Origin: a virus
IMG/VR virus record: IMGVR_UViG_3300011440_000016
Span: 1-43,597 of that record
Direction: 5' to 3' (one strand)
Length of the DNA stretch: 43,597 nt
The notes under the pieces are model-generated. The model was given only the letters and a program-made list of their open reading frames with translations. It searched no databases and was not told the origin of the DNA. The position numbers and the translations under genes are program-made. Shown in pieces: positions 1,817 to 42,987 of the stretch (position 1 is the stretch's first letter; every line of letters begins with the position of its first letter).

Positions 1817-2436
1817 ATTATTTAACTAGAGATACTTGGACTAGCAGACTTCCTTGGTCTTCTACTAGAGGGGACACCTTTGAAGGAATGCCCTTCTTTG
1901 AGGGGCTACCTGTAGGTGTAGAATTCGTCGCCCTTGGGCGAGAAACTCTTTACGTCAAGCAAGATCCTACAGAAGTCTTGAACATGCTTCTGAAAGAAAC
2001 TAATCAGACTGGCCTATCAGATATTCCGTATAATTACGCAATCGCTCAGAATCGAACTGGCGTTTTCGTAGTTCGTGGAGGAATTACCAAATGCCCCTCT
2101 ACGAAGAAGTTACGAGTTCTGATGCTAATTGGGAAGCACGAAGAGCCTACTGACTGCTTAAAGGATAACCAGCTTCTAGTCCTAGGAAGTAGCAACCCTC
2201 CACCTCTTAACCCGATGTTTCCAGGAGATTCCTCTATCCACGTCTTCAACTTAATTGAATTCTTAGCTTCCAGAGGACTTTATAAGGCTCGAAACGACGG
2301 AGTCTACGGAGCCTTCTGCACACAAGCTGTTCATCAATTGCAGATCATATTAGACAATCCGCAAATTGACGGCAATTACGATACATCTCTGATAGATAGA
2401 CTATGCCAAACCGAACTGACGAGCCAATCTCATTAG
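1813..2436 (+). CDS. Degenerate amidase-2/PGRP-fold protein, 207 aa
   Basis: Overlaps the preceding stop (ATGA) and the large terminase start by 34 nt. The pattern is like an N-acetylmuramoyl-L-alanine amidase (Amidase_2/PGRP): RDTWTSRLP near the N-terminus, then GLSDIPYNYAIAQN-G-FVVRGG (usual GW.DI.YNF.I...G.IYEGRG), then VLMLIGKHEEPTD...QLLVL (usual GI.IGNFE..PT..Q). The zinc-ligand histidines expected after the first strand and before the IG motif are not apparent, so it may not be catalytic. Alternatives are a cell-wall-binding or regulatory role, or a structural protein with only superficial similarity. Its position between the terminase genes is unusual. Confidence 0.45.
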   Translation: MNYLTRDTWTSRLPWSSTRGDTFEGMPFFEGLPVGVEFVALGRETLYVKQDPTEVLNMLLKETNQTGLSDIPYNYAIAQNRTGVFVVRGGITKCPSTKKLRVLMLIGKHEEPTDCLKDNQLLVLGSSNPPPLNPMFPGDSSIHVFNLIEFLASRGLYKARNDGVYGAFCTQAVHQLQIILDNPQIDGNYDTSLIDRLCQTELTSQSH

Positions 2437-3917
2437 GCCAAGTAGCCTTACTTGCAGAAGAGATGCTCCGACGAGCATCTATTTCTCCTGGCCTAGTAGC
2501 TTACAACCCGCATGAGAAACAGGTAGCCTTTCATAAAAGCCTAGAGAAGGAAAAGCTTTTCATAGGTGGAAACAGATCAGGCAAAACTGTAGGTTCTGTC
2601 TGCGAAGATTTAATGTGGCTTACCGGGAACCACAGGTTCCGAGACGATATTCCTACCCCCTGTAGGGGTCGAATAGTCGCAGTCGATATTGAAGACGGCG
2701 TAAAGAAGATCATTCTACCAGAATTGGCAAAATGGACACCTCGAAGCTTTCTCATCAACGATTCTTGGGAAGACTCTTACGACAGGCAGAGCCGTACTCT
2801 AACTTTGAACAACGGCTCCTTCGTAGAACTTATGAGCTACGAGCAGGACGTGGGAAAGTTCGCAGGAACTTCCAGACACTTCATTCATTTCGACGAAGAA
2901 CCTCCCAAAGACATTTACGACGAATGCTTGATGCGTCTCATAGACACAGACGGATCTTATTGGATCTCTATGACGCCGTTAATTGAAATGAGCTGGGTAA
3001 AAACTCAGATTTATGAACCCTGGGAAGCAGGCGATCAGAGTATTTTCGTGATACAAGTAGACACAGAAGATAACCCGCATGTTCCAGCCTCTTCTCTAGA
3101 TAGACTTACCAGGGGACTTTCGGAAGAAGAAAGGGCTGCCAGAACTAAGGGCGTCTTTATTACCCATACCGGTCTTGTCTACCAGGGAACTTTTTCGGCT
3201 AAGTCTTATTTGGAGGGAGGAAACGTTGTTCCAGATTTCGTTGGATCACACCTATTTCAAGATTTTGTCAAAGGTTGGGGACATTTTACTTGCATGGATC
3301 ACGGTTTTTCTAATCCTACTGTATTTCTTTTTTGCTGCTTTAATGAATACGGCGTCATCATTGCATACGACGAGATTTACCTCAATAGAACGACGGTCAA
3401 AGACCTAGCTCAGATCTATAGACAACGAGTTGAAACACTAGGCGTCGAGCCGATATATTGCGTAGGAGACCCTAGTAACTTAACGAGAACGGAAGCGATT
3501 ACTGGCACCACCATTCAATCGGAGTATATGGAACACGGTGTTGCTATAGCTCTCGGTCACAAAGACGTGAACGCTGGAATAGTTCGATGCCAGAATCGCT
3601 TTCAAATGAAGAAGCTCTTCATATCTGAGCGCTGTAGGCATACTCTAAAAGAAATATCCAACTATAGATGGGATCGCTTCTCATCTTCCAAGATAGCCGC
3701 AAGAAGGAATCAGAAAGAGACACCTCTTAAGAAGGACGATCATTGCATGGATGCCTTAAGGTACGGTGTAATGTCTCGGCCCGCATTAGAAGGTGAAGAA
3801 GATTTGAAGCCTTTCAACTTCTTGAACGTTCCAGAAGCTGGTTTGAAGGATATGGATTACGAACTTTGCTTTTCGCAACCAGAAAGCTACGACGAAAACT
3901 TAGGAATTGAGTGGTAA
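2403..3917 (+). CDS. terL: Terminase large subunit, 504 aa
   Basis: ATP-driven packaging motor with a C-terminal nuclease. The Walker A motif GGNRSGKT lies near residues 56-63 and Walker B FIHFDEEPP (catalytic Glu next to Asp) near 160-168. The coupling segment ISMTPL follows near 190. The C-terminal RNase H-like nuclease domain includes HFTCMDHGFSNPT (first Asp), YDEIY, GDPSN and a late KKDDHCMDALRYG, the usual last metal ligand. Length is typical. The ATG at 2403 overlaps the previous gene, and the stop overlaps the next start as TAATG. This is the most certain assignment of the packaging module. Confidence 0.96.
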   Translation: MPNRTDEPISLGQVALLAEEMLRRASISPGLVAYNPHEKQVAFHKSLEKEKLFIGGNRSGKTVGSVCEDLMWLTGNHRFRDDIPTPCRGRIVAVDIEDGVKKIILPELAKWTPRSFLINDSWEDSYDRQSRTLTLNNGSFVELMSYEQDVGKFAGTSRHFIHFDEEPPKDIYDECLMRLIDTDGSYWISMTPLIEMSWVKTQIYEPWEAGDQSIFVIQVDTEDNPHVPASSLDRLTRGLSEEERAARTKGVFITHTGLVYQGTFSAKSYLEGGNVVPDFVGSHLFQDFVKGWGHFTCMDHGFSNPTVFLFCCFNEYGVIIAYDEIYLNRTTVKDLAQIYRQRVETLGVEPIYCVGDPSNLTRTEAITGTTIQSEYMEHGVAIALGHKDVNAGIVRCQNRFQMKKLFISERCRHTLKEISNYRWDRFSSSKIAARRNQKETPLKKDDHCMDALRYGVMSRPALEGEEDLKPFNFLNVPEAGLKDMDYELCFSQPESYDENLGIEW

Positions 3918-4099
3918 TGCCAGAGAAAATGGAACTTCCAGAATTTACTCCGCCCGAAGGATGCACATACAACAGAGATGAAGACCCTTCGGGAACGATC
4001 CATGAGATTTGGTATTCTTATCCTGGTGGAGAGCTTGTAGCCGAACGTAAAACTGGGAAAGACGGCAGAGTTCAAATTACAAGGAATCCGATAGGATAG
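3917..4099 (+). CDS. Hypothetical small protein, 60 aa
   Basis: Starts by TAATG overlap with the terminase stop (ATG at 3917; a GTG at 3911 is possible). The sequence is charged and aromatic (MPEKMELPEF, HEIWYSYPGGELVAE, VQITRNPIG). I do not recognise it. Tight coupling to terL suggests co-expression with the packaging genes. Confidence 0.75.
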   Translation: MPEKMELPEFTPPEGCTYNRDEDPSGTIHEIWYSYPGGELVAERKTGKDGRVQITRNPIG

Positions 4100-4107
4100 G
4101 AGTTGAG

Positions 4108-4185
4108 ATGGTAGCGGGTAGAAGTGGTGGCTGGCTTAGAAGGTTGTGGGATAAGATTATGAATAAGGATAAGGTCAAGAAGTGA
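4108..4185 (+). CDS. Tiny basic protein with VAGRSGGW signature, 25 aa
   Basis: ATG at 4108 follows AGGAGTTGAG, a good ribosome binding site (AGGAG, 4 nt spacing). The peptide begins MVAGRSGGWLRRLWDK and is Lys-rich at the end. The same VAGRSGGW octapeptide recurs in an 11-codon ORF at 5182-5217, just before the portal gene. The stop overlaps the GTG of the next gene as GTGA. The function is unknown. Confidence 0.6.
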   Translation: MVAGRSGGWLRRLWDKIMNKDKVKK

Positions 4186-4655
4186 CCATCGTTATGGGGA
4201 AGCCTACGTTTCCGCCTTATATTTGTATTGAGTGCGGTATGCAGGATCAACGTAAGTGGTTTGTCGATCTTCAAATTCAGATCGATCTACATTTCAATCC
4301 CGTTATGAACGGGGTAATCTATCTTTGCAATCTTTGCTTCGACGCCAAAGTTCTAGACACTCTCAGACAAGCACAAGCATACGAAGGTATTACGTACGAC
4401 GGAGAAACGCCTACCTATGAAAATAAGAAGGAGTTACTCACAGAAATAGAATTTGAGGAACAACATGACGAACCTGAACCAGACACCGGAACAGTTCGTG
4501 ATCCAATCCCAAGCAGAATTAATCCAAGCGCTTCAATCTTCGATGAAGATAGTGCTGGATCTGAATCAGAGTCTACAGATGACTCTGATGGCGAAAGAAA
4601 ACCCCTATCCGAATTTAGAACCTTCTTCGGAGGAAAATCCCGACAGGGAGTCTGA
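4182..4655 (+). CDS. Zinc-ribbon-like protein with acidic disordered tail, 157 aa
   Basis: Two Cys pairs, CIEC near residue 15 and CNLC near 49, suggest a zinc-binding N-terminal domain. The C-terminal half is acidic and Ser-rich (EDSAGSESESTDDSDGE). The start is GTG at 4182 (overlap with the preceding stop) or ATG at 4194. From 4465 the gene is overlapped in another frame by a second ORF with its own ribosome binding site, so the C-terminal part should be treated with caution. I do not recognise the family. Confidence 0.7.
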   Translation: MTIVMGKPTFPPYICIECGMQDQRKWFVDLQIQIDLHFNPVMNGVIYLCNLCFDAKVLDTLRQAQAYEGITYDGETPTYENKKELLTEIEFEEQHDEPEPDTGTVRDPIPSRINPSASIFDEDSAGSESESTDDSDGERKPLSEFRTFFGGKSRQGV

Positions 4656-4743
4656 CGAAGATATTGATACGGAATGGGCAATAAAGTTTGCACAAATGGA
4701 GGCAAATGATGTCAGCAACAGCAACGAAGACGAGCGATCTTGA
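4465..4743 (+). CDS. Overlapping small protein, 92 aa
   Basis: Starts at ATG 4465 after GAGGAACAAC, about 190 nt inside the preceding gene in a different frame. The N-terminal half is Gln/Leu-rich and probably helical (QSQAELIQALQSSMKIVLD). The C-terminal half is acidic (EENPDRESDEDIDTEW). It runs into the start region of the gene at 4709. The good ribosome binding site and natural-looking composition argue that both overlapping frames are used. The function is unknown. Confidence 0.6.
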   Translation: MTNLNQTPEQFVIQSQAELIQALQSSMKIVLDLNQSLQMTLMAKENPYPNLEPSSEENPDRESDEDIDTEWAIKFAQMEANDVSNSNEDERS

Positions 4744-5185
4744 CGACGTTCGTGCACGTCTTGCAATTAAGACGCCGCAGGACGCCGTTGTAGCATTTCT
4801 TCGAGAAGAAATTGAGGAAGATGATTTCCGTGAGGAACTCGGACGCTTCGGTACTCTTCCAGGGGATCTTGCAACGATGGTTCGTGTCACAGTAGATAGA
4901 CCGGATGCCGCTTTCAGAAGGACTATCCCGGCAGACCTTATGGAGCCAGTTCTTCCACCCGAAGACTCTCTTGCGGTCCACGAAAAGCAGGTAGCAGAAA
5001 AGCAAGCCCTTAGGGACGAAGCTACTGAACTTGCAAAGAAAGACAAGACACGAGAAGAGACAGTCAAGCGTGAGACTCCCGAATTTCGGGATGAACTCGC
5101 CGCCAAGCACATTACGGACCCGCTTGCGGACGTTCGTAAAAGTGACAAAAAGTCCGGCGACGAAACTAGAAAGGCAAACGCATGA
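4709..5185 (+). CDS. Hypothetical charged protein upstream of portal, 158 aa
   Basis: The ATG at 4709 has GGAGG 6 nt upstream; an adjacent ATG at 4706 is possible. The first half is compact (DDVRARLAIKTPQDAVVAFL, GTLPGDLATMVRVTVDRPDAAFRR). The second half is a long charged helix with many KK, EE and DK pairs, likely coiled coil. I do not recognise the family; its position between terminase and portal suggests a minor head role. The stop overlaps the next tiny ORF as ATGA. Confidence 0.75.
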   Translation: MSATATKTSDLDDVRARLAIKTPQDAVVAFLREEIEEDDFREELGRFGTLPGDLATMVRVTVDRPDAAFRRTIPADLMEPVLPPEDSLAVHEKQVAEKQALRDEATELAKKDKTREETVKRETPEFRDELAAKHITDPLADVRKSDKKSGDETRKANA

Positions 5186-5217
5186 CAAAGGTAGCAGGCC
5201 GCTCAGGCGGCTGGTAA
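5182..5217 (+). CDS. Eleven-residue ORF MTKVAGRSGGW
   Basis: ATG overlaps the preceding TGA (ATGA), and the stop is 7 nt before the portal ATG, which has no obvious Shine-Dalgarno of its own. It repeats the VAGRSGGW sequence of the 25-aa ORF at 4108. It may be a coupling leader peptide or a small conserved peptide. It is too short to be sure. Confidence 0.35.
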   Translation: MTKVAGRSGGW

Positions 5218-5224
5218 ACAAAAA

Positions 5225-7501
5225 ATGGTAGACGTTCTGTTGACAGGTTCGGCTGATGCGAATCTCATGCAAAAGTGGGATAGTAAGCTTAAAGCCTGTC
5301 AGCAAGAACGTCTCCGATTCGAGGCTCAATGGCATCGTAATATGCTATTTTACTTTGGTCGGCAATGGATCACTCAGACTAAGACTGCCAACGGGTTTAA
5401 TATCGTTGAAGAGCCTATCGAACATCCGTGGAGAGTTAGACACACTGCCAATCGTATTCTCCGAATAGTTCGTACGGAGCTTACGAAGCTTACAAAAGAA
5501 GAGCCGCAGTATTACTCTATGCCTTCTTCGACGGAACAAAAAGATCGCCTTGCAGCAATGGCGGGGGATGCCATTGCTGAATACACTATTCGGACTAAGT
5601 ATTTCAACAGAAAAAGAACCGAAGCGACTTTATGGGCGCTACTACACGGAACAGGTTTCCTGAAGAATTACTACGATCCGAACAAAAACGACTTGGATGG
5701 AATGCCCGGTCGAATTGACTTTGAAGCCGTAACGGCTCTACATCTTTTCGTAGGAAACCTACAGCAACCTGACCTACAGGAACAAGATTTCGTTTGCCAC
5801 GCTAGGACCATGTCAGCCGAAGCTGCGTATATGTGTTTCGGGGTCGATTGCGAAGCTGATACTTCATCGACGGATATTCTTCTTGACCAAAGATTCACAG
5901 CAGCTGTAGGTATTAACAGTAACCCGAAAGCGGAGAATAAGCAGGTCTACGTTAAGGAATGGTACGTAAAGCCCTGCAAGGATTTCCCTAAGGGCGCTAT
6001 GTTCATCTACGGCAGCGGGAAGATGCTTTATGTATATGAAGCTCCTGAGATTCCTGAACCTTTTATGGAGAGTGAAGGAGAAGATCCGAGTGTCCTTCCT
6101 AGTGAATCTCCAGAAACTGTCGAAATAGAGCCTAGTCGCAACCCTGTAGGTTATAAAGAAAACCCTCTTGCAGAGAATTACATTCCGGGAGCTTCTGTAG
6201 AAGAAGGTCTTAGGAAGTATAATCACGAATTTGGATATCGTCACGGTCGGTTCCCCTTCGCAAAGATCGATCATATTCCTTCTGGAATGTTTTACGCTCG
6301 AAGCGTAATTGAAGCTCTAATTCCTCTACAGAAGGAATACAACAGAACTCGAAGCATTATGCTGGAGCAGCGTAATCTTACTGGAAAGCCACAATGGTGG
6401 TATACACCTGGAGCATTCGATCCAAAGAAGTTTACAGGTAAACCAGGTCTTTTGCTTCCTGTGCATTTGGGATTTGAAGGTCCTAAAGCAATTGAACAAC
6501 CCCCGCTTCCTCCTAATGTTCCTGCGGAACTCGATATTACTGTAAGGGACATGGATGATGCTGCCTCTCAATTCGAGGTAGCTAAAGGAAGGACTCCCCC
6601 AGGTGTCGAAGCAGCATCGGCTATTGCTTATTTGCAGGAAGAAAACGACACGATTCTTTATCACACCGTACAATCCTTGGAAGACGCCGTTCAAGAAACA
6701 GGTGTGCAAGTTCTAGCGAATGTGCATGATTATTGGCCAGAAGAGCGAATCGTTAGAATGACGTCTCGAAACCAATTCATGGAAGTTCGTGAATTCAAGA
6801 AGACTGACCTGAATCCGATTACAGACTTTAGGGTTGAAGCTGGATCAATGGCTCCTAGGTCTACAGCTGCTAAGCAGGCGTTCATTACAGAACTGCTTAA
6901 GCTCGGAGCTATCGATTCTAGTAAAGCTCTTAGATATCTGCAAATGTCTGAGACAAATAAGCTTTATGAAGAGTTGATGTTAGATGTTCGTCATGCTCAA
7001 AGAGAGAACATATATATGTCTGAGGGACAGCGTCTTACAAAGGTTGACATTTCTGCTCCTAAGCCTGAATTGACTCCTGAGATGATGCAGCAACTACAGA
7101 TGATACCGCCTGAACAAGCTCAGCAAATGATGCAACAGCTGCTTGTTCCGCCTAATAAAAAGACGGAGATGCTCGATCCTCTGGGTAAACCTATTCTGCA
7201 ACCTAATCCTGAGACTGGTCAAATGGAACCAGTCATGTATGAGATCACGGTTAACCCCTTTGATGATCATGCGGTGCATGTTGAAGAACACCAAAATTTC
7301 CAAAAGAGCCAAGAATATGAACTTTTATCACCTGAGATTCAGAAGATTATTCAAGACCACGTTGACGAACACAAGATGGAAATTCTTAAAGAACGTAACG
7401 CAATTCAAGCAGATGCAGCAATGAAACAAGAACCAGAAGGTGAAGAAACTGTTCCTCCAAGGGAATTGGAACCTTCTTCTAACGGGCAGCAGGGATATTA
7501 A
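5225..7501 (+). CDS. Portal protein, P22-like, 758 aa
   Basis: Twelve copies form the DNA portal vertex at which the terminase docks. The length (758 aa) and order (terminase, portal, scaffold, capsid) fit the P22-type portal family. The N-terminal WDSKLKACQQERLRFEAQWHRNMLFYFGRQW segment, spanning about residues 14-45, is typical, as is the later LQKEYNRTRSIMLEQRN region near 365. The C-terminal 150 residues are Gln/Met/Pro-rich with a charged helix, as in portal barrels. The stop overlaps the scaffold start (TAATG). Confidence 0.88.
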   Translation: MVDVLLTGSADANLMQKWDSKLKACQQERLRFEAQWHRNMLFYFGRQWITQTKTANGFNIVEEPIEHPWRVRHTANRILRIVRTELTKLTKEEPQYYSMPSSTEQKDRLAAMAGDAIAEYTIRTKYFNRKRTEATLWALLHGTGFLKNYYDPNKNDLDGMPGRIDFEAVTALHLFVGNLQQPDLQEQDFVCHARTMSAEAAYMCFGVDCEADTSSTDILLDQRFTAAVGINSNPKAENKQVYVKEWYVKPCKDFPKGAMFIYGSGKMLYVYEAPEIPEPFMESEGEDPSVLPSESPETVEIEPSRNPVGYKENPLAENYIPGASVEEGLRKYNHEFGYRHGRFPFAKIDHIPSGMFYARSVIEALIPLQKEYNRTRSIMLEQRNLTGKPQWWYTPGAFDPKKFTGKPGLLLPVHLGFEGPKAIEQPPLPPNVPAELDITVRDMDDAASQFEVAKGRTPPGVEAASAIAYLQEENDTILYHTVQSLEDAVQETGVQVLANVHDYWPEERIVRMTSRNQFMEVREFKKTDLNPITDFRVEAGSMAPRSTAAKQAFITELLKLGAIDSSKALRYLQMSETNKLYEELMLDVRHAQRENIYMSEGQRLTKVDISAPKPELTPEMMQQLQMIPPEQAQQMMQQLLVPPNKKTEMLDPLGKPILQPNPETGQMEPVMYEITVNPFDDHAVHVEEHQNFQKSQEYELLSPEIQKIIQDHVDEHKMEILKERNAIQADAAMKQEPEGEETVPPRELEPSSNGQQGY

Positions 7502-8319
7502 TGGACGTTAACGCATCTTTCGGTGGTTCAGCCTCACAAGAAGGTCAGGAATCAACGGTAGAGTCAGTTGTAGAACCTACAGAACAGGGTGGAAATCCCT
7601 GGCTAAATGAAGTAGCGCCTGAACACAGAGGAATTGTTGCTCCCTATCTAAAGAAATGGGATCAAGAATCGACTAAGAAGTTTCAGTCGTGGTCAGAGAA
7701 GCACAAGCCTTACGAAGCATTAGGTTCAGCTGAGGAATTAGCGAAATATCGAAATTTTGCTGAGAATTTCAGACAAAATCCAGAAAGAGTTTTCAAACTT
7801 ATGTTTGAGAGTCTTCAGGAACAATACGGAGAGAATTTCGATGCAGAACTCCTGCGTATTCTCGAATTAGAAGCAGAGGAACAAATGAACGAATACGAAT
7901 ATGAACAGGAATACCAGGAGCCTCCTGATTCTGATCAAGTATTCCAACAGAACGTAATGCAGGAACTTGAAGAGCTTCGTGCATGGAAAGAAGAGCAAAC
8001 TCAGTCTCAGACATCGCAGCAGGAACAGGCTCAACTTGACCAGTTCCTCGAAGTGATGCATACTAAGTTTGGTGATTTCGATGATGACTGGGTTCTCCTA
8101 AGACTTGGGGAACACGGTGATCCGAACAAAGCAATTCAGCAATATAAAGCCTTCGAGGCTAAAATTGCTGGAAAAAATGGAACTACGCCAAGACAGCCTC
8201 CAAAGACGCATTCGTCTGGTGGTCAGGGGGGTGGAGTTCCGAACGAAAATATCAACCCAGCAGAACTACGTGGCGAAGCTAGAAGAAAGGCTGTTCTCGC
8301 CATGTTAGGAGAGGAATAA
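7501..8319 (+). CDS. Capsid scaffolding protein, 272 aa
   Basis: Lies directly between portal and major capsid genes. It is highly acidic and Gln/Glu-rich with predicted helices (EYEYEQEYQEP; QELEELRAWKEEQ; SQTSQQEQAQLD) and a short basic C-terminal patch (RGEARRKAVLAMLGEE), the pattern of scaffolding proteins that bind coat subunits through a C-terminal helix. The stop abuts the capsid start. The identification is by composition and synteny. Confidence 0.82.
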   Translation: MDVNASFGGSASQEGQESTVESVVEPTEQGGNPWLNEVAPEHRGIVAPYLKKWDQESTKKFQSWSEKHKPYEALGSAEELAKYRNFAENFRQNPERVFKLMFESLQEQYGENFDAELLRILELEAEEQMNEYEYEQEYQEPPDSDQVFQQNVMQELEELRAWKEEQTQSQTSQQEQAQLDQFLEVMHTKFGDFDDDWVLLRLGEHGDPNKAIQQYKAFEAKIAGKNGTTPRQPPKTHSSGGQGGGVPNENINPAELRGEARRKAVLAMLGEE

Positions 8320-9525
8320 ATGTCTGCAACCCTGACCACTGTTGCCGGTATCTTGAAAGAGGTATACGAAGGTAACATCAACAACCAGCTTAATGAGGAA
8401 CGAATCACCATTAAGCGAATCGAGAGAACTGCTGAAGGTGTTACAGAGGACGCTGTAGGTGGTAAATATGTTACCTTCCCGGTACGTATTTCTCGTAACC
8501 ACGGTATTTCATATCGTGCAGAAAATACAGCCCTTGCACCTGCGGGTAGGCAGGGTCTTAAGGCTGCTACAGAAACGTTGAAATACGGTTATGGCCGTAT
8601 TCGACTGACTGGGCAGCTTATTGATCTTGCTGAAACTAATAAGCAGGCATTCACTTCCGGTATGGACATGGAAATGGATGGAATCAAGGAAGACCTTCAA
8701 AAGGACGAAAACCGAATTGCATATGGCCACCTCGATGCGGCTATTGCATCTGGAATTAAGGCGAAAGTTACTGCTAACTCAGCAGGAACCACTCTGACAG
8801 TTGATTCCACGGATTACCTCGAAGAAGGTATGGTTATCGACGTTACCGCAGCAGGAACTCCTGTTTCCGGTGGCGCTCAAAAGACTATTACTGCAATTCT
8901 TACTGCCACCACATTTACGGTGGACGTTGCAATTGCTGGTGCAGTTATCGGTAACTACGTCTCCAGGTTTGGTGACTACAACCAGGAACCTCATGGTCTT
9001 AATAAGATCATTGACTCTACTGGTGTTCTCCACGGACTTGATCCAGCTACTACTCCAAAGTGGGTAGCTTACGAAGATGGTTCAACTACTGCTCTTACCG
9101 AACTGGTAATGGTTGCAGCAGTTGATAATATCCGTAAGGCTGGCGGAGGTCCTAACATTACTGCTATCTTTGCTTCTCTTGGAGTTCGTCGTGCGTATTG
9201 GAACCTGCTTACAGGTCTCCGGCGTTTCAATGAACCAAAGAGGTTTGATGGCGGTCTTACCGGGCTTTCTTTCATGTACGGTGAAGGTACGGACATTCCA
9301 GTTGTAGCAGATCCTGATACTCCTGCGAAGCACATGTTCTTCATTAACGAGAAGGAAATCAAGATCTGGCGAAAGAAGGATTGGTACTGGGAAGACCGGG
9401 ACGGATCTGTTCTTAAGTGGGTCGTTGATTACGATGCCTTTGAAGGCCTGATGAAGAAGTACTGGCAGCTTGGTACTCACAAGCGCAATGCTCATGGAAA
9501 GCTCACGAATCTGACAGAAGCCTAA
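8320..9525 (+). CDS. Major capsid protein, 401 aa
   Basis: The ATG follows GGAGAGGAATAA. Its start resembles actinophage capsid proteins of the HK97 fold (TVAGILKEVYEGNINNQL; VTFPVRISRNHGISYR; GYGRIRLTGQLIDLAE). A Thr/Ala/Gly-rich beta segment at about residues 145-215 (TVDSTDYLEEGMVIDVT, TITAILTATTFTVDV) looks like an inserted beta domain, such as the P22 I-domain. The C-terminal part carries EIKIWRKKDWYWEDRDGS. The codons are the most regular in the window, as expected for the most expressed gene. Confidence 0.88.
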   Translation: MSATLTTVAGILKEVYEGNINNQLNEERITIKRIERTAEGVTEDAVGGKYVTFPVRISRNHGISYRAENTALAPAGRQGLKAATETLKYGYGRIRLTGQLIDLAETNKQAFTSGMDMEMDGIKEDLQKDENRIAYGHLDAAIASGIKAKVTANSAGTTLTVDSTDYLEEGMVIDVTAAGTPVSGGAQKTITAILTATTFTVDVAIAGAVIGNYVSRFGDYNQEPHGLNKIIDSTGVLHGLDPATTPKWVAYEDGSTTALTELVMVAAVDNIRKAGGGPNITAIFASLGVRRAYWNLLTGLRRFNEPKRFDGGLTGLSFMYGEGTDIPVVADPDTPAKHMFFINEKEIKIWRKKDWYWEDRDGSVLKWVVDYDAFEGLMKKYWQLGTHKRNAHGKLTNLTEA

Positions 9526-9552
9526 GCTAACCGTCGTAGCTTACGGAAATGG

Positions 9553-34865: not shown

Positions 34866-34912
34866 GTTTTCTTTCCTTTTTGTAGGTGAATATGCCTCTC
34901 GGCCACCTCTCA

Positions 34913-34941: not shown

Positions 34942-34963
34942 GAGATTTCTGCTAGGCAGCGAG

Positions 34964-35236: not shown

Positions 35237-35246
35237 TTTCTTTCTC

Positions 35247-35683: not shown

Positions 35684-35694
35684 TGAATCCCTCC

Positions 35695-35981: not shown

Positions 35982-36363
35982 ACTTGAACTTTCTGTAGAA
36001 ACTGATCTTAAATGGTTCGGGGGCATCCTCCGAAGGACGCCATCCTGTTACATGACACTGTAAAGGAAGAGCACATGAAAATCCTCTTGCATGACCATGT
36101 TTGATATATAGTACATTATCTTCATCTAGATATAACCAGAAGTCATCTTCATCTAAATAATGGTCTACTGTGTATGTATAGTCAGCCCACTTGAAACCTA
36201 CAGGGGCTAGAATTTCGTAGAGCTTTTTGAAAGTATTTTGTTGCATAGGGGGTGGAACATAGGGCTTATATGGTGCCTCATTATGTGGTCTAGTCTTCTT
36301 AGAAGGAGCAGACTTTCGTAAAGCTCTAGCATTAGCTAGTATTTCTTCTATGCTTCTATTCAT
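35971..36363 (-). CDS. Hypothetical protein, 130 aa
   Basis: ATG 36363 is supported by the ATGA overlap with the upstream gene. A Lys/Pro-rich N-terminus (RKSAPSKKTRPHNEAPYKP) precedes a beta-rich domain (YTYTVDHYLDEDDFWLYLD; VLYIKHGHARGFSCALPLQ). No catalytic motif recognised. Confidence 0.72.
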   Translation of the reverse strand: MNRSIEEILANARALRKSAPSKKTRPHNEAPYKPYVPPPMQQNTFKKLYEILAPVGFKWADYTYTVDHYLDEDDFWLYLDEDNVLYIKHGHARGFSCALPLQCHVTGWRPSEDAPEPFKISFYRKFKYGN

Positions 36364-36524
36364 GCGTACCACCATCCCCCTGCTCTAAGTTCGACAGCTT
36401 TATACGCCAATGCAACACTAATAGGAACGAACTCTACTAGAATTGCATCAGCTTGTTTATGCGATTTTTCTTCACTATCCCCGCTGATCTGATCTAGTTT
36501 TAAAACTGCTTCGTATTCAGTCAT
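36360..36524 (-). CDS. Hypothetical protein, 54 aa
   Basis: ATG 36524 lies in an overlap with the upstream gene and has GGAGG about 10 nt upstream. MTEYEAVLKLDQISGDSEEK is followed by AILVEFVPISVALAYKAVEL and GGWWYA. Function unknown. Confidence 0.62.
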   Translation of the reverse strand: MTEYEAVLKLDQISGDSEEKSHKQADAILVEFVPISVALAYKAVELRAGGWWYA

Positions 36525-36756
36525 AGTCTTCTAGTTCCTCCTTGAAAGAATGGACAGTAATTTCGTCCATCAGTTGTTTTCTGATCTTGATTTTCTCTTG
36601 TGGAGAGAAGTGGGCGAAAAGCTTGGTGATTACATATGCGACGTCGTCAACCAGTACTTCTAGATCGGAGTTCTCAAAGACAGCTATTAGTTTCTCGAGG
36701 TCGTAACCTTCGCTTAGTGAAAGAAGGGCTTCCACATTCTTGTAGTGATCTGCCAT
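36517..36756 (-). CDS. Hypothetical helical protein, 79 aa
   Basis: TAATG overlap with the upstream gene. Three amphipathic helices (YKNVEALLSLSEGY; LEKLIAVFENSDLEVLVDD; KIKIRKQLMDEITVH). Looks well folded; unknown family. Confidence 0.72.
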   Translation of the reverse strand: MADHYKNVEALLSLSEGYDLEKLIAVFENSDLEVLVDDVAYVITKLFAHFSPQEKIKIRKQLMDEITVHSFKEELEDYD

Positions 36757-36902
36757 TAGTGCTTCGCAGTTTTGTAGTGATTTTCAACGAATTTGACGAT
36801 TAGAGACAGGTTACTCCTGAATGTGATTGAATTGATTGTAGTTCCACAAACACTACAGACAACATGCACCCCTGTAGGTCGTATCTCTATGATTGCTTCC
36901 AT
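36756..36902 (-). CDS. Zinc-finger-like protein, 48 aa
   Basis: ATG 36902 and stop 36756 overlap both neighbours (TAATG). RPTGVHVVCSVCG is followed by FVENHYKTAKH, a CxxC...HxxxxxH arrangement similar to a single zinc finger. It includes one copy of the octamer CCTGTAGG. Confidence 0.62.
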   Translation of the reverse strand: MEAIIEIRPTGVHVVCSVCGTTINSITFRSNLSLIVKFVENHYKTAKH

Positions 36903-37084
36903 TATCTTGCATTCCTTTCTATTTCTATAAGTTGCTGTTCGATCAACAACATCTTTACGTAGCTTAAAGCGTTTTTATACGAACAGAAGGATTCCAATTT
37001 TCTAGCAGATTTATTTTCTGTTACTATCCAATGATCGTATCTTCCACTTTTCATACAAATACGACAACAAAAAATTGAAAACAT
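36902..37084 (-). CDS. Hypothetical Cys-rich protein, 60 aa
   Basis: Begins MFSIFCCRICMKSGRYDHWI with C6, C7 and C10, then C33 in LESFCSY, followed by helices (NALSYVKMLLIEQQLIEIE). The stop overlaps the next ATG. Unknown role. Confidence 0.6.
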   Translation of the reverse strand: MFSIFCCRICMKSGRYDHWIVTENKSARKLESFCSYKNALSYVKMLLIEQQLIEIERNAR

Positions 37085-37087
37085 TAC

Positions 37088-37267
37088 TTAGCTCATCCCT
37101 AACTCTTGTCTATGATCTAACTCTCTGAGCAAATCTCCATAATTACAAAAGCAATAATGCAGCCCTCCAAATTTCCATCCATATTGTTGAGTCCCGCTCT
37201 TAGGTCCAACTAGAACACCTAGCTTCTCTCGAAACTTTCCTGTGTTATTACATTTATGACATTTCAT
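37088..37267 (-). CDS. Zinc-ribbon-like protein, 59 aa
   Basis: ATG 37267 forms ATGA with the helicase stop and has AAGGGG upstream. MKCHKCNNTGKFREK and HYCFCNYGDL give CxxC...CxC. The GNTGKF part resembles DnaJ-type fingers. Function unknown. Confidence 0.68.
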   Translation of the reverse strand: MKCHKCNNTGKFREKLGVLVGPKSGTQQYGWKFGGLHYCFCNYGDLLRELDHRQELGMS

Positions 37268-39099
37268 AAGAGCCCCTTTAGGTATTTCTTCCATTCATCC
37301 TTTGGACGAAGCTCGGATGATTCAGTGAAGGCTTGAAACTGCAACGCCTTATCGTCACAAAGTTGTTGCACAAAGAAGTCAACGCTATTTTCGCACTTCA
37401 AATCGTAGATGAATACTGGCTCATTGATCTTTCGAGCATCGCCAGAAGGGCGAACTGCTCTCTTGTAGAATTGATCGTTGCGCATGTTATTCCACCACTT
37501 ATCAAAGTAGATAACTGCTCTTGCACCACCAGGCCATTCGGTCGGATCTTTGTGAAGGTTAAGTCCCTCTCCCATTGCTAGGTTAACGCAGAGAACGTCA
37601 ATCTTCTTCTGCTGGAATCCAACCTCGTATTTATCGAGATCCTTTCCATGTGCAGATGAGATTACTTCACAGACCAATCCTTCTACCTGACAACGGAAGG
37701 CAAATTCTTCCATTGGCTCATTAAAGTTGCAGCCAATGATTACCTGATCCTGTGTTTGCAGAACGATATCCATTGCCTCATCCAACTTGGAGGAATCCCT
37801 ACAGTCCAGCTTGAATTCTTCAATGCCTCCATCTTCTGTCTCAATTCGGAAGTTGGCTACTGGTAGAACGTTGATCTGCCTAAGGCGCATAAGCTGAGCA
37901 ATAATAGCCGCAGCAGGAAGCGCCTTCTCTTGCTTATCAAGCCAGATAAAGAAACGATCACGCATCTGAGCATAATATTCTCCCTGCTGAGGATTATGGG
38001 GAATGATCTTTTCAATCCACTGGATTGGGGGAAGTTGTAGCCCGACTTCGGAAGCAGTTCTACGAATTAACCTGCCCTTAAGAATGTCCTTCATCAGCTT
38101 CTCGCTTTGAAGAGTGAACTTCATCTGTCCGCTCATGTCTTTGAAGGCGTTGAACTGACGAGCGAATTTCTTTGCGTCTGGAAAAGCATTGGGATCGAAT
38201 AGGTGGAGATATGACCAGATTTCCTCCATCTTATTGACAAGAGGAGTTCCGGTCAACATCATCTGGAAACCTACAGAAAGGCCTTTGATTGTCTCCCAAA
38301 TAGCAGTAGGGCCAGAGCTATTAGCTCCGCCCTTTAACTTATGGACTTCGTCCATTACTAGGAAGTCCCAGTGGATTTTGTTTCCGAACTTCTTGATTGT
38401 CTCGTAGTTAGTCAAGACACAAATACCGCCCTCGGCAGCGATCTCGAAGACAATATCTCCGGCAGCTACAGATCCACCTACAGGGAAGACTTTAAGTTCT
38501 GGAAACCATCTCTTAGCTTCACGGAAAGTTCCGCCTGTCTTCACAATTGACAGCTTAGTAAGCCAGAGGATTGTTGCTTCCTTACCAAATTTCCGGCGAT
38601 GAAGTTCCATGCAAATCTTTAGGGCAAGAAGAGTTTCGTAGGTTTTACCAAGCGCCATTTCATTGGCGTTCATGATTCCAGAGGAGCCCTGTAGGTATTG
38701 ATGAACTATTCTGACTACGTCCTCGATCTGATAGTCACGAGCTTTTGTCCACGCTTCGTAACCGTCACAAATCTCCTTGATGATAAGCACCGTATCATCA
38801 AGCATCTTGTTTTTAGCTTCTTCCTCTTTTTGGCGACGAAGAGCATTAAGCCTTAGCATATCCTCTTCATAAGCAGCTCTGGCTTTACGGAGGACTTCAT
38901 AATGTTTGTCATGCATTGTGTTCAGCTGATTATTCAATCGCTGAATATGAGCACGAATTTCATTATGCTTCTGATAGTGAGAGACTTCAATCTCTTTAAT
39001 TTTGTCACCGTATGTTTCGGTAGTTTCAAGAAGTTTGCGAATCTCTTCGTCTATATTGAAGAATTCGGGCTCTTTCCCGAACCGTGCATTAATCTCCAT
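37264..39099 (-). CDS. SNF2/SF2-type DNA helicase, 611 aa
   Basis: ATP-dependent DNA translocase of the phage SNF2-like type. The N-terminal about 100 residues are coiled coil (NEIRAHIQRLNNQLNTMHDK). Motif I MNANEMALGKTYETL near 145 matches the SNF2 form, then motif II FLVMDEVHKLKGG near 245 and motif III MLTGTPLVNKMEEIW near 278. The C-terminal lobe has VNLAMGEGLNLH near 505 and QFYKRAVRPSGD near 550, as the QxxGRxxR-type motif. Probably acts in replication restart or recombination. AAGGA lies upstream. Confidence 0.86.
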   Translation of the reverse strand: MEINARFGKEPEFFNIDEEIRKLLETTETYGDKIKEIEVSHYQKHNEIRAHIQRLNNQLNTMHDKHYEVLRKARAAYEEDMLRLNALRRQKEEEAKNKMLDDTVLIIKEICDGYEAWTKARDYQIEDVVRIVHQYLQGSSGIMNANEMALGKTYETLLALKICMELHRRKFGKEATILWLTKLSIVKTGGTFREAKRWFPELKVFPVGGSVAAGDIVFEIAAEGGICVLTNYETIKKFGNKIHWDFLVMDEVHKLKGGANSSGPTAIWETIKGLSVGFQMMLTGTPLVNKMEEIWSYLHLFDPNAFPDAKKFARQFNAFKDMSGQMKFTLQSEKLMKDILKGRLIRRTASEVGLQLPPIQWIEKIIPHNPQQGEYYAQMRDRFFIWLDKQEKALPAAAIIAQLMRLRQINVLPVANFRIETEDGGIEEFKLDCRDSSKLDEAMDIVLQTQDQVIIGCNFNEPMEEFAFRCQVEGLVCEVISSAHGKDLDKYEVGFQQKKIDVLCVNLAMGEGLNLHKDPTEWPGGARAVIYFDKWWNNMRNDQFYKRAVRPSGDARKINEPVFIYDLKCENSVDFFVQQLCDDKALQFQAFTESSELRPKDEWKKYLKGLL

Positions 39100-39256
39100 C
39101 GTCGGTCCTTATTTGAATCTTTTCAAAGAATATAGCTGATGGGATACTAATTGTAAGCAGTTCGCCCCTTGCGGCTACTTGAACAATTACTTCCCTACCA
39201 TCATGGACAATGACCACTCTTTGTTTATTTTTACCGTAATAATTGAGTAGACTCAT
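39089..39256 (-). CDS. Hypothetical protein, 55 aa
   Basis: ATGA overlap with the upstream gene; the end overlaps the helicase start. MSLLNYYGKNKQRVVIVHDG, then VIVQVAARGELLTISIPSA and a charged end. Small beta protein; no family recognised. Confidence 0.65.
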   Translation of the reverse strand: MSLLNYYGKNKQRVVIVHDGREVIVQVAARGELLTISIPSAIFFEKIQIRTDDGD

Positions 39257-39432
39257 GACTTAGGCCTTTCGATGCAAGTTGTCATGCCCCAAACGTGATT
39301 GCCATTTTTATCAAGTACGAAGACCTCGATCGGATCAGTATTAGGACACCGATAAGTACTCCCAGAAAGGCAGCCGTCACGAACGAATTCGTAATCGTGA
39401 CAAGCGCCATGAATGATGTCCCCCTTATTCAT
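39253..39432 (-). CDS. Hypothetical Cys-rich protein, 59 aa
   Basis: ATG 39432 lies within the end of the previous gene and the stop overlaps the next start as ATGA. Contains HGACHDYEFVRDGCLSG, YRCPNTDPIEVFVLDKNGN and MTTCIERP, giving four cysteines in a zinc-binding-like spacing. Function unknown. Confidence 0.68.
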   Translation of the reverse strand: MNKGDIIHGACHDYEFVRDGCLSGSTYRCPNTDPIEVFVLDKNGNHVWGMTTCIERPKS

Positions 39433-39607
39433 AATCGTTCACTTCCTCATAATGAATAAAGTAAGAAAGACTAGGCACAATTACTGCAAGTCTCTCTCCT
39501 TTAGAGTCGAGAATTTCAATGTGCTCATATTGATCAACGACGTCATGAATAGCATCGTTAAGCTTGTCCACGCTATTGAGAGTTGCCCAGTAAACTTGCT
39601 TATTCAT
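39425..39607 (-). CDS. Hypothetical protein, 60 aa
   Basis: Start ATG 39607 (MNKQVYWATLNSVD) overlaps the upstream stop. It continues KLNDAIHDVVDQYEHIEILD and GERLAVIVPSLSYFIHYEE. No motif. A longer ORF upstream is antiframe overlap and unlikely. Confidence 0.68.
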   Translation of the reverse strand: MNKQVYWATLNSVDKLNDAIHDVVDQYEHIEILDSKGERLAVIVPSLSYFIHYEEVNDYE

Positions 39608-39830
39608 CGTCTTCTTCTTTGAACATCGTATCCCAGCAGTCGGGATGAATTCCAGTCTTAAGCATTTCTCTAGTATCTGCACTGACTTCGGGGAAAGCGT
39701 TCTGGATTAATGTCCCATTTTTCCAAGCATCGTAATGATCCTTGACAACTTCAAGCTCGGATTTGTTCCTGCAATAAATGCAAGTAGGTGTTTGGATCAG
39801 TATTAATTCCCGACCGTATGGATCTTTCAT
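39600..39830 (-). CDS. Conserved small actinophage-type protein, 76 aa
   Basis: One CxxC pair (PTCIYCRNKSELEV), then a helix and IQNAFPEVSADTREMLKTG followed by IHPDCWDTMF. The xIQNAFPxxSADxREMLxTG...CWDxMF pattern recurs in small proteins of many actinobacteriophages; no function is established. ATG overlaps the upstream stop region. Confidence 0.75.
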   Translation of the reverse strand: MKDPYGRELILIQTPTCIYCRNKSELEVVKDHYDAWKNGTLIQNAFPEVSADTREMLKTGIHPDCWDTMFKEEDDE

Positions 39831-40111
39831 TACTTTACTCCTTGTTTCATTATCATGAGGACATAGGATCTGGATAGTCCATATCTCTTTGCAATAGAGG
39901 CAGGATTTTCAAAGGCTCTCATTCGGCGACGAATATCAGTCTTATCTTCTTCTGAGAGCTTATGGGTGGACTTAGCTCCGAAAGTTCGCTGTCCTTTTAG
40001 AGAAGCTTCTTTCTTTGCAGCTTTCACTTTATAGGCTCTTTCAAGACCAGTTAATCCAGTATGATGAAAACCATCCATATCATAATTGGGATGCATGTGA
40101 TCTGGATTCAT
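39830..40111 (-). CDS. HTH DNA-binding protein, 93 aa
   Basis: The C-terminal half is a helix-turn-helix: SEEDKTDIRRRMRAFENPASI followed by AKRYGLSRSYVLMIMKQG, like homeodomain-type HTH of resolvases. The N-terminus is His-rich (DHMHPNYDMDGFHHTG). Probably a small phage DNA-binding regulator. ATGA overlap with the upstream gene. Confidence 0.7.
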   Translation of the reverse strand: MNPDHMHPNYDMDGFHHTGLTGLERAYKVKAAKKEASLKGQRTFGAKSTHKLSEEDKTDIRRRMRAFENPASIAKRYGLSRSYVLMIMKQGVK

Positions 40112-40776
40112 GATGTGATCTGCTTTACTGTGATGCCTAATTCAGGGTGAGCTTCTACGTACTCGACAACATCCATGAGGGACATAGGCCGCCCGTCATT
40201 GTGATGGATATCTATTCCGATCTTCCTACAGACTGCAAGATGATTCCTGTAGTATTCGTCGTCGCCTTCTCCGAAGAAGAACATATAGTGCACAAGTGCA
40301 CGATCTCCCCCGAAATTGCCTGACATCGGTTCGAGCTTTTCTCCTTCAAAGACGTTGAAGATTTTAACAGCTTCTAGCCACTGGTTCAAAGCTTCACGCA
40401 ATCTCTTGTACTGAGCATGTGCGGTGGCTTTATCCATCACGTGAGTAGTCTCAGCTAGTTCCTGGGCGGCCTTACTTTGAGCAAGGTATTCGATATCGGC
40501 AGCAACCTTACGCATCCTCTTAGCCAACTCAAAGTAAGCCGAAACGGGAAGCTCTTCGGAAGCTTTATGCCAAATCTCTACCATCATCTTATTGTACTCT
40601 GCATAAGAGCCATCGAATTTAGGAGCCTTGGCAATATGCGATGCAATCGAAGTATTACCTCGCATGATGCTCTTCAATTCTGCAGCGGCATCTACACAAG
40701 ACTTATAGAAAGGCTCAGGATCAGTGAGCATGGTAGAAAAATCAATCTCTAGATCGTCAAAGATTGAAGCGGCCAT
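40108..40776 (-). CDS. Hypothetical helical protein, 222 aa
   Basis: Almost all helical (PFYKSCVDAAAELKSIMRG; YFELAKRMRKVAADIEYLAQ; QYKRLREALNQWLEAVKIF) with a glycine-rich turn (EPMSGNFGGDRALVHYMFFF) and a C-terminal basic-acidic helix. TGATG overlap with the upstream gene. Resembles long helical proteins next to replication genes in actinophages; no function can be assigned. Confidence 0.78.
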   Translation of the reverse strand: MAASIFDDLEIDFSTMLTDPEPFYKSCVDAAAELKSIMRGNTSIASHIAKAPKFDGSYAEYNKMMVEIWHKASEELPVSAYFELAKRMRKVAADIEYLAQSKAAQELAETTHVMDKATAHAQYKRLREALNQWLEAVKIFNVFEGEKLEPMSGNFGGDRALVHYMFFFGEGDDEYYRNHLAVCRKIGIDIHHNDGRPMSLMDVVEYVEAHPELGITVKQITS

Positions 40777-41162
40777 CAGACGAATCTCCTAACAAAGATA
40801 CCGGAATCAGTTGTGTTGCCACAAGAGTAGCAAGTATCAGGATCGGCATTCCGAACACGAATTGGATCACGATCGGGATTCTGAATTGCCCAACAAAGGT
40901 TGCATACTGGAACATTCACCCATCTTCCAGAAGCAACCGGAGTAGTAGTAGGATCGAATCGACGAGCAATTTCGAATTCCTCGTCAAGAAGCTTCTCCAA
41001 TTCAGGATCAGCCATCTTGATTTCCCTGAGAGATTCGACGTACTCAGAAAGGCGGCTCGCATGAGCGTTCGCCTGTTGATAGCGTACCCAAATGTCCTGA
41101 ACTTCTTCAGCAGTGACTGAATAGTCCTTGCCATCAATGTGTGCGGTGAATGTGATGTTCAT
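40776..41162 (-). CDS. Zinc-ribbon-like protein, 128 aa
   Basis: ATG with AAGGAGA upstream. A helical N-terminus (DYSVTAEEVQDIWVRYQQANA) precedes the Cys part, VPVCNLCWAIQNP and PDTCYSCGNTTDSG (two CxxC pairs about 25 residues apart), as in zinc ribbons. Role unknown. Confidence 0.76.
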   Translation of the reverse strand: MNITFTAHIDGKDYSVTAEEVQDIWVRYQQANAHASRLSEYVESLREIKMADPELEKLLDEEFEIARRFDPTTTPVASGRWVNVPVCNLCWAIQNPDRDPIRVRNADPDTCYSCGNTTDSGIFVRRFV

Positions 41163-41311
41163 TCTGTTTCTCCTTGTTGTAGAATGTTGCGCTGTCCGAT
41201 CGTGTTCATTTCAATCAGTTCCGAATAGCGACTCTGCCAATCGGCTGCTGATAATTCGCCCTCAGCTTCTAGTTGTTGAAAGCGAAGATCAGTATGTAAA
41301 GGTATGCCCAT
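41159..41311 (-). CDS. Hypothetical protein, 50 aa
   Basis: The end overlaps the next ATG (ATGA). MGIPLHTDLRFQQLEAEGEL, ADWQSRYSELIEMN and a polar end. No strong ribosome binding site, but both ends couple to neighbours. Function unknown. Confidence 0.62.
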   Translation of the reverse strand: MGIPLHTDLRFQQLEAEGELSAADWQSRYSELIEMNTIGQRNILQQGETE

Positions 41312-41412
41312 TACTTCTTCTCTCTAGAAATGTAACGGTTTTCGTTATGATCTTGACCTACAGGGCAGCTACAGATGTGATCAAGATTGTCGCCGTGATT
41401 ACATCTATGCAT
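41311..41412 (-). CDS. Small His/Cys-rich protein, 33 aa
   Basis: TAATG overlaps at both ends. MHRCNHGDNLDHICSCPVGQ has C4, H6, H12, C14 and C16, a metal-binding cluster. Includes a copy of the octamer CCTGTAGG. Very short; support rests on coupled overlaps and pattern. Confidence 0.52.
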   Translation of the reverse strand: MHRCNHGDNLDHICSCPVGQDHNENRYISREKK

Positions 41413-41684
41413 TAGAGGATCTCCCTAACTGCAATCGACTCGAAACGCTTGGGCTCAGAATCGTGATGATCAAAGATAGAGAAGGTTCTCAGTCCATCTT
41501 CTGAACGAACGACTCTTTCAATAATGCTCCTATCAGCAATTACGAATTGGCCGTTTGCATAGCTCTCGACTACTGTTCCTAAGTACGGAGTGACAACTAG
41601 ACGAGATGCCTTTGCATTCTTATCGTAGACAATCTCTGAGTACATGAAGTGAACAAATTCTCCGAGTTCAAACTCTACTGGCAT
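41412..41684 (-). CDS. Hypothetical SH3-like protein, 90 aa
   Basis: ATG with AAAGGGGA upstream. Beta-rich: FELGEFVHFMYSEIVYDKN, RLVVTPYLGTVVESYANGQF, RTFSIFDHHDSEP and SIAVREIL. Resembles a small barrel of the SH3 type. First gene after the regulatory gap 41685-41774. Confidence 0.68.
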   Translation of the reverse strand: MPVEFELGEFVHFMYSEIVYDKNAKASRLVVTPYLGTVVESYANGQFVIADRSIIERVVRSEDGLRTFSIFDHHDSEPKRFESIAVREIL

Positions 41685-41774
41685 TTTAATCCCCTTTATC
41701 GGATATCAACTGAGGGCCGTCTGCCCTCCCAGGTATAGTGTACCACGGCTGTCAAGCGATAAATGTATTAGCTA
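41685..41774 (-). promoter_or_regulatory. Regulatory gap with TTGACA and repeats
   Basis: Minus-strand TTGACA (41755-41750) is followed by GCCGTGGTACACTATACC; TATACC lies only 12 nt after it, so the true -10 is uncertain. Just upstream, TATTAGC is repeated in tandem (TATTAGCTATTAGC). On the + strand GGCTGTCAAG resembles part of the mycobacteriophage L5 operator/stoperator, but no other full copy was found. Confidence 0.4.
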
Positions 41775-41963
41775 TTAGCTATTAACGCGACGCCAGTAAG
41801 ACTCTCTTATGACTGGATAGGTGGCTGCCATAATACTAGCTATTGCTGGATGAAGGCTTTGTTTATACCAATGGTAATTCTGTGTATAGAGAGGGTCGTC
41901 TTCTGTAGGAGGTGTTAGGAGGTAGTAGCAACCTACAGGTTGGTAATATCTAGCGTGTTTCAT
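41775..41963 (-). CDS. Hypothetical protein, 62 aa
   Basis: Start overlaps the regulator gene by 14 nt. Tyr-rich: MKHARYYQPVGCYYLLTPP, then YTQNYHWYKQSLHPAIAS and a basic end (RESYWRRVNS). Function unknown. Confidence 0.68.
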   Translation of the reverse strand: MKHARYYQPVGCYYLLTPPTEDDPLYTQNYHWYKQSLHPAIASIMAATYPVIRESYWRRVNS

Positions 41964-42700: not shown

Positions 42701-42742
42701 GGTGACACGGAGAAGCTATACTGGTGACACGGAGAAGCTATA
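42701..42742. repeat. Tandem 22-bp repeat, two copies
   Basis: GGTGACACGGAGAAGCTATA occurs at 42701-42720 and 42723-42742. The core GACACGGAG recurs at 43067-43075. An iteron-like array in the non-coding region 42530-43191. Confidence 0.85.
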
Positions 42743-42757
42743 GTCAGATTCCGAGTC

Positions 42758-42792
42758 TATGAAGTTCGTTATGAAGTTCGTTATGAAGTTCT
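42758..42792. repeat. Tandem 12-bp repeat, three copies
   Basis: TATGAAGTTCGT repeats at 42758, 42770 and 42782 (the last with one change). No supported gene covers it. Upstream, 42600-42650, CGTATACTT occurs twice and GGTCTTT/AAAGACC forms a hairpin. Confidence 0.85.
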
Positions 42793-42799
42793 ATACAAA

Positions 42800-42846
42800 A
42801 GCGTGTGTCGTTATCTCTCGGAGAGAGAGTAACGTACACACACGCT
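42800..42846. other. Large hairpin/cruciform in non-coding region
   Basis: AGCGTGTGT (42800-42808) pairs with ACACACGCT (42838-42846); inside, GTTA and TCTCTC pair with GAGAGA and TAAC around a GGA loop. About 18 bp of near-perfect stem. It could be an origin structure, protein-binding site or terminator; it has no T-run. Confidence 0.75.
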
Positions 42847-42987
42847 GCCTGATCGAGAGGCTCCTGACAGACCCCGCCTGAGAGGCCTTCGTAAGCATTA
42901 CCCTTAGAAACCGAATCTTCTAACCTGTAGGTAATGACAGACAGACAAACATATACTCCCAATGCAAATTAAAGACAAATAAAATTG

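Follow-up and report, generated by a model that had tools for sequence, protein, structure and literature searches.

A dispersed, strand-specific heptamer in a phage genome and its probable recognition by the phage's own RepB-type primase

The IMG/VR virus record IMGVR_UViG_3300011440_000016 (positions 1 to 43,597; this whole stretch is referred to as the window) contains the octamer CCTGTAGG/CCTACAGG at many dispersed positions, and we describe here the exact form of this word, its distribution in the window and in other phages, and its probable reader. Our recount gave 27 copies, confirming the number and the span given in a preliminary description of this DNA. The 13 copies on the + strand are located at 1909..1916, 2659..2666, 6143..6150, 11911..11918, 12157..12164, 21617..21624, 26921..26928, 28127..28134, 28396..28403, 31812..31819, 36871..36878, 38688..38695 and 42924..42931, and the 14 copies on the - strand at 5773..5780, 11512..11519, 16855..16862, 20865..20872, 22826..22833, 23882..23889, 26861..26868, 27065..27072, 31140..31147, 35803..35810, 36197..36204, 38477..38484, 41357..41364 and 41932..41939. 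The copy at 42924 had been described as the single intergenic one; it does lie outside the called open reading frames (ORFs), but so do those at 23882, 36871, 41357 and 41932. Dinucleotide shuffles of the window contain 0.89 octamers on average and 5 at most, and Markov models of order 1, 2, 3 and 4 predict 0.87, 1.2, 2.0 and 4.9 copies, respectively, the order-3 value staying well below the 20 or more copies that had been named as speaking against a genuine enrichment.

While the enrichment of the octamer thus stands, the octamer is only a slice of the true unit, which is the strand-specific heptamer CTGTAGG with a loose 5' base and often a T behind it. CTGTAGG occurs 51 times versus 5.8 expected (about nine times chance), with 26 copies on the + and 25 on the - strand. 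Position 1 of the octamer accepts any base and a T follows its 3' end in 23 of 27 cases, whereas single changes at positions 2-8 leave 0-2 copies each, except for CCTGTAGT with 5. C directly precedes CTGTAGG in 53% of cases, and at the next position outward G is under-represented. The 24 heptamers without a preceding C span 1966..41909 and start (first base of the heptamer in + coordinates) at 2587, 3632, 5904, 8453, 10343, 11453, 15326, 16874, 20631, 27893, 29646, 35518 and 41903 on the + strand and at 1966, 5758, 7576, 16846, 18161, 21693, 29025, 33395, 37798, 38270 and 40225 on the - strand. The near-dyad structure proposed earlier was not borne out: ACCTGTAGGT and CCCTGTAGGT are present nine times each and palindromic variants of the octamer not once in the window, so that the word is asymmetric, a dyad operator is rejected and a dyadic regulator site fits poorly.

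Most sites are intragenic, and they occupy both strands of genes and all permitted reading frames as well as positions outside genes, extending the observation that copies fall in several frames. This distribution is at odds with the word being a by-product of codon usage or amino-acid repeats, an explanation to which the coding of Pro-Val-Gly and Pro-Thr-Gly lends some colour: 15 of these 16 triplets are encoded by the octamer and one Pro-Val-Gly by CCGGTTGG, so that the statement that every such triplet uses it holds with one exception. Permuting synonymous codons in the 41 called genes, however, leaves 2.6 ± 1.4 octamers (maximum 7 in 300 permutations) versus 22 observed. Codon preference alone is therefore insufficient, as had been argued before; codon usage is rejected as the cause, and we regard this explanation as practically negligible.

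The window encodes a terminase, a portal and a capsid protein, a WhiB-type regulator and, on the - strand, a replication and recombination module. The latter comprises a family A DNA polymerase (25537..27240; PF00476, E 7.7e-52), a primase-helicase (27083..28801), a small protein without Pfam match (28931..29356), a Sak4-like annealing ATPase (29349..30062; phrog_124, E 2.5e-38) and a Cas4/PD-(D/E)XK exonuclease (30323..31285; PF12705, E 9.8e-28, and PF01930); an SNF2-type helicase (37264..39099, -; PF00176, E 3.7e-28) lies in the same arm. The primase-helicase has 572 amino acids, starting from TTG at 28801, and combines a RepB-type archaeo-eukaryotic primase (AEP), a helix bundle and a RecA-like helicase. 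Its residues 1-288 (27938..28801, -), comprising the catalytic domain and the predicted helix bundle, were modelled with AlphaFold2 (model m6df1b7ec42de) at a mean predicted local distance difference test score (pLDDT) of 85.9, with helices 198-287 following the catalytic domain. At E<0.001 the model matches only AEPs in the PDB (6zp9, 3h20, 3h25), among them S-2L PrimPol (6zp9, TMt 0.74) and RSF1010 RepB' (3h25, TMt 0.69), and these matches include RepB' bound to its initiator DNA. Thus, as modelled, the N-terminal domain is a RepB-type AEP fold with a helix bundle, although the placement of the bundle relative to the catalytic domain cannot be superposed on 3h20 as one body (root-mean-square deviation 18). 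The primase motifs W78-x-E80-x-D82, S104..H110 and D137..R148-x-P150 are present; D82 and D137 are invariant in 20 primase sequences, and H110 is substituted in several homologues from phages with the word GTGTGG (see below). With the RepB_primase profile PF16793 the window protein scores below the cut-off, whereas the homologue of phage Huwbert scores above it (43.6 versus 24.3 bits). For the C-terminal half the matches are hexameric helicases, among them RSF1010 RepA and T7 gp4, and AAA_25 (E 2.4e-20). Since the N-terminal half resembles RepB' and the C-terminal half RepA, the protein is a RepB-RepA-like fusion.

We compared the window with about 20 distant viruses, and ranked words by their enrichment in the fetched relatives. 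The nearest isolated relatives by terminase are Arthrobacter phages Jasmine and Brad, Cellulosimicrobium phage DS1 and Microbacterium phage Shocker, that is, podoviruses and other actinobacterial phages; the Manatee Spring podovirus assembly is a further one. Close relatives, for which the preliminary description had suggested a recount, also contain the octamer (7 copies in 12 kb of L001, 8 in 9 kb of L002). Word-bearing relatives share the shape of the word, a fixed 5' half CTGT followed by a lineage-specific 3' half. The word is CTGTAGGT in the window, CTGTAGGA in the Manatee Spring assembly and G005, CTGTAGAT in G007, CTGTAGCC in G012 and G026, CTGTGGC in G014, CTGTGGG in Jasmine and Brad, CTGTCGC in DS1 and CTGTAAAGG in Shocker, where CTGTAAA reaches 45 copies versus 0.3 expected in a genome of 63% G+C. 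(Shocker, L084, also contains TACCCTAA 15 times versus 0.04 expected.) About 15 other relatives with the same terminase, and the same portal and capsid where these were read, have no comparable word. Wherever the replication arm of a word-bearing relative could be read, it encodes homologues of both polymerase (25537) and primase-helicase (27083), several word-bearing contigs being partial and hence uninformative here; neither gene has a homologue in any of the word-less relatives, and a primase-family profile splits the relatives identically. The idea that the phage's own replication and recombination module is relevant is thus corroborated, as the word tracks the primase and polymerase of this module.

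Several terminase relatives contain GGTATTCA repeats, which in G029 (L132-L133, about 11.6-13 kb) form a collagen-like repeat gene; we rejected them as the same phenomenon because they are tail-gene repeats and not dispersed sites.

As a predictive test, a second set of phages was picked by distant primase homology alone, their virion genes being unrelated to those of the window. It consists of siphoviruses and myoviruses of Mycobacterium, Gordonia, Microbacterium, Pseudomonas, Serratia, Yersinia, Arthrobacter, Curtobacterium and other hosts, and those with a homologous RepB-type primase from the first six of these genera over-represent GTGTGG. GGTGTGG is the most enriched heptamer in Muddy (40 versus 7.2), BigChungus (38 versus 7.2), SteamedHams (39 versus 7.6), Lebethron (45 versus 7.8), P744 (29 versus 5.0) and Huwbert (42 versus 5.4), the second in Tlacuache, where GTGTGGC is first, and the fifth in Cleo. 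Related words are found in Eleri (GTGTGGCC, 40 versus 3.4), Gorgeous (GTGTGC, 93 versus 23.9) and Yappy (CTGTGC, 97 versus 40), and MW202455 over-represents both GTGTGG and CTGTGG.

Three phages isolated on one strain, Arthrobacter ATCC 21022, allow host and phage to be separated. Jasmine contains CTGTGGG 47 times versus 3.3 with no excess of GTGTGC, Gorgeous shows its excess of GTGTGC with none of CTGTGGG, and in Galaxy, which has other replication genes, neither word is enriched. As phages of the same strain have different words or none, the word belongs to the phage. This bears on a host-determined signal, i.e. a host Chi, restriction-modification or methylation motif, as proposed in the preliminary description: a host Chi is rejected by this Arthrobacter comparison, and a restriction-modification or methylation mark fails for the same reason. 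Moreover, GTGTGG is common to phages of Mycobacterium, Gordonia, Pseudomonas, Serratia and Yersinia, and same-family phages without the replication module lack the word. In favour of a host signal one may point to other words that the window strongly avoids, e.g. CTTGAG (1 versus 26), GAGGAG (4 versus 20), CTGCAG (1 versus 15) and CTGAAG (12 versus 42). Altogether, we consider a host-determined signal extremely unlikely. As a prophage control we looked for the word inside prophages versus flanking host DNA, but primase-alignment scans of bacterial genomes found no relative. The avoidance of words in the window is probably restriction-site avoidance, and the set of avoided words varies between relatives of the window phage. 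Galaxy (L164), in turn, over-represents CCTCGAG (90 versus 14).

We then analysed how the words are spaced. In 20 of 20 genomes the words are more evenly spaced than control words of matched count from the same genome (mean percentile 0.095), and in 16 of 20 the evenness acts within the strand, beyond random strand reassignment, most strongly in Muddy, BigChungus, Cleo, Gorgeous and Eleri; some of these genomes are related, so that neither figure represents independent trials. Word pairs less than 200 bp apart lie on opposite strands in 159 and on the same strand in 99 cases. Most carriers have a site about every 1-2.3 kb on each strand, G038, a partial contig, being sparser, and in the window the interval per strand is about 1.7 kb. 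The strand-by-strand regularity fits a signal that is read on a single-stranded template. Most phages with CTGT words favour C and T at the positions 5' of the word, which is what primers beginning there with a purine would lead one to expect.

These features also bear on a double-stranded binding site, be it for a stoperator-like repressor, a regulator or a nucleoid-type organising protein. The stoperators of cluster A mycobacteriophages are likewise dispersed short sites whose sequence drifts by group, and the Arthrobacter relatives encode Lsr2-like proteins. Stoperators, however, are repressor sites that lie mostly between genes and are oriented with respect to transcription, whereas the window word is asymmetric, lies mostly within genes in several frames and on both strands, is spaced per strand and prefers opposite strands in close pairs; no integrase was found among the window ORFs examined or scanned, and homologues of the window's helix-turn-helix protein (41950) are absent from the compared carriers. 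A duplex site is thus very unlikely, and the DNA-organising motif of the preliminary description fits poorly with an asymmetric word that is regularly spaced on each strand.

The enrichment, the lineage-specific words, the link to the primase gene, the independence from the host, the regular spacing per strand and the primase fold all support one reading, which was absent from the earlier candidates and is the best supported: judging from the sequence comparisons, we are fairly confident that the genome-wide word represents recognition sites of the phage's own RepB-type primase, the word being specific to a lineage and changing along with its primase. We infer binding, priming, the initiation point and selection by the need of the lagging strand as follows. 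The N-terminal part of the primase-helicase, i.e. catalytic domain plus helix bundle, would recognise 5'-CTGTAGG-3' on the single-stranded template, and the primer would begin at the word or just upstream (5') of it, where the favoured bases C and T would give G or A as its first base. A word of 7-9 bases would be too rare by chance, and therefore selection would maintain about one copy per 1.7 kb per strand, retaining it mostly inside genes through the choice among synonymous codons. The dense words would let the lagging strand be primed at Okazaki-like intervals; Okazaki fragments of T7 measure 1-6 kb (PMC12839067). Drift of primase specificity would then entail drift of the word throughout the genome, providing each lineage with its own word. 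In general terms, phages with a RepB-type primase probably write a lineage-specific priming word across their genomes that co-evolves with the primase, so that the specificity would be readable from the genome sequence.

Several observations weigh against this reading. Polymerase, Cas4-like exonuclease and Sak4 accompany the primase in nearly all carriers, and because the genes of the module travel together the separation of primase and exonuclease rests on few cases, chiefly Streptomyces phage Zuko, whose GTGTGG count (64 versus 47.8, not enriched) covers 50 of 82 kb. Youna2 and BSTP8 have homologues of the exonuclease and of Sak4 but a primase of the TOPRIM type, and a somewhat similar word, CTGCGG, is over-represented in both (50 versus 9.0 in BSTP8); this may be the site of their own primase or a nuclease site. 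The Desulfofustis phage is weakly positive (CTGTGG at rank 5), and CN1A deviates with CCGTGCG (54 versus 14.7). The window itself is only mildly even, at the 27th percentile (0.27) of the controls. A strand switch marking an origin was not found, as 21 of 22 genomes lack a reliable change point, which rejects locating the origin in this way; Tlacuache has a possible switch point (p 0.023). Finally, Lactococcus phage 1706 GP55 primes at CCAAC in vitro, and CCAAC is not over-represented in that phage (93 versus 83.5). Enrichment of primase sites is therefore not universal; CCAAC is short and loosely required, which may render enrichment unnecessary in 1706.

Across the compared phages the word nonetheless changes or disappears together with the primase gene, and it is here that the main rival can be assessed, a phage-encoded Chi-like signal that the Cas4/PD-(D/E)XK exonuclease and Sak4 would read on one strand to stop degradation, thereby protecting phage DNA and starting recombination. 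Chi sites of E. coli RecBCD and their analogues are over-represented, short, dispersed and asymmetric too, Chi being an octamer read on one strand, so that the per-strand regularity fits as well; Chi, however, is set by the host, whereas the words described here are phage-specific within one host. The presence of exonuclease and Sak4 in nearly every carrier, and an over-represented CTGCGG in Youna2 and BSTP8, which keep both proteins without a RepB-type primase, agree with such a signal, but in these two phages the word differs together with the primase type. For Zuko, all three trees (quick ones with several long branches, so that exact placements are provisional) put polymerase, exonuclease and Sak4 within the GTGTGG group, while the word is absent and the primase is remote (49 bits versus 376 for Huwbert, the match covering the catalytic part only). 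Gorgeous and Yappy, with short and remote exonucleases (211-213 amino acids), have nearly the same word, and this word goes with the primase half. Of the earlier Chi-like proposal only the phage-encoded version survives, as second best, and we consider it unlikely.

The same phages argue against another replication protein as reader, such as the DNA polymerase, the helicase half or a single-strand binding protein (possibly the small protein 28931-29356), for which the word might be, e.g., a signal for lagging-strand cycling. Within the window's own family, polymerase and primase follow the word equally well, but Zuko keeps the polymerase type and not the word, and Gorgeous and Yappy keep a TGTGC word although the same primase half is fused to a different, DUF3987 helicase half. 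This alternative is quite improbable. Recognition by the primase also agrees with Olihed, which has terminase (64%) and capsid (81%) in common with Eleri but a Prim-Pol primase, i.e. a different primase type, and no such word.

Known primases provide precedents for recognition of the word by the primase. RSF1010 RepB' has a primase fold with helix bundle and recognises specific single-strand initiation sites, GTG being the proposed start in ssiA (PMC4434180), and the RSF1010 RepA helicase resembles the C-terminal half of the window protein. RSF1010, however, has one 40-nt hairpin site per strand (ssiA/ssiB) and replicates in leading-strand mode, whereas the window phage has a fused primase-helicase and a short word repeated at intervals of roughly 1-2 kb. 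NrS-1 PrimPol and pRN1 ORF904 are AEPs with a helix bundle that read a short template word and place the primer just 5' of it; according to one report NrS-1 PrimPol uses TTTGGTTA and GTGG/GTGA, starting at the first base 5' of its site, and ORF904 uses GTG (PMC8718748). These enzymes double as replicative polymerase, whereas the window phage has a family A polymerase, and in the partly accessible literature we found no mention of a genome-wide over-representation of their sites. T7 gp4 is a fused primase-helicase with site-dependent Okazaki starts as well, but its primase is of the DnaG/TOPRIM type with a GTC core, which is short and plentiful and therefore needs no enrichment.

Sequence-specific priming has so far been known from single enzymes in vitro, and in the open-access literature we found no account of a primase word shaping an entire phage genome, or of such a word drifting between lineages. 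If our reading is correct, a genome sequence would be a direct read-out of primase specificity, so that new specificities could be mined in bulk and yield a set of tool primases whose differing start sites are predictable. The starts of lagging-strand fragments would become predictable, and gene transfer between phages would be constrained, as imported genes lack the right word. It would also explain the dispersed intragenic repeats in Arthrobacter and Microbacterium phages, which are not mentioned in the accessible parts of the annotation papers on these phages (PMC5513430, PMC7302621).

Some minor observations concern the phages used for comparison. About 70% of the words lie on the + strand genome-wide in the GTGTGG phages L154, L156, L157, L158 and L159, with no reliable switch except possibly in Tlacuache, which suggests a mainly one-directional replication fork. 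The primase of Youna2 and BSTP8 (L169, L172) is a TOPRIM primase-MCM fusion, possibly a second primase family with a genome-wide word. Zuko contains 12 copies of CCGGGTATC, some as inverted pairs GATACCCGGGTATC (L171:31853-42121); being clustered at 31.8-42.1 kb, they were rejected as its dispersed word. They sit among small leftward genes and are probably promoter, terminator or operator elements.

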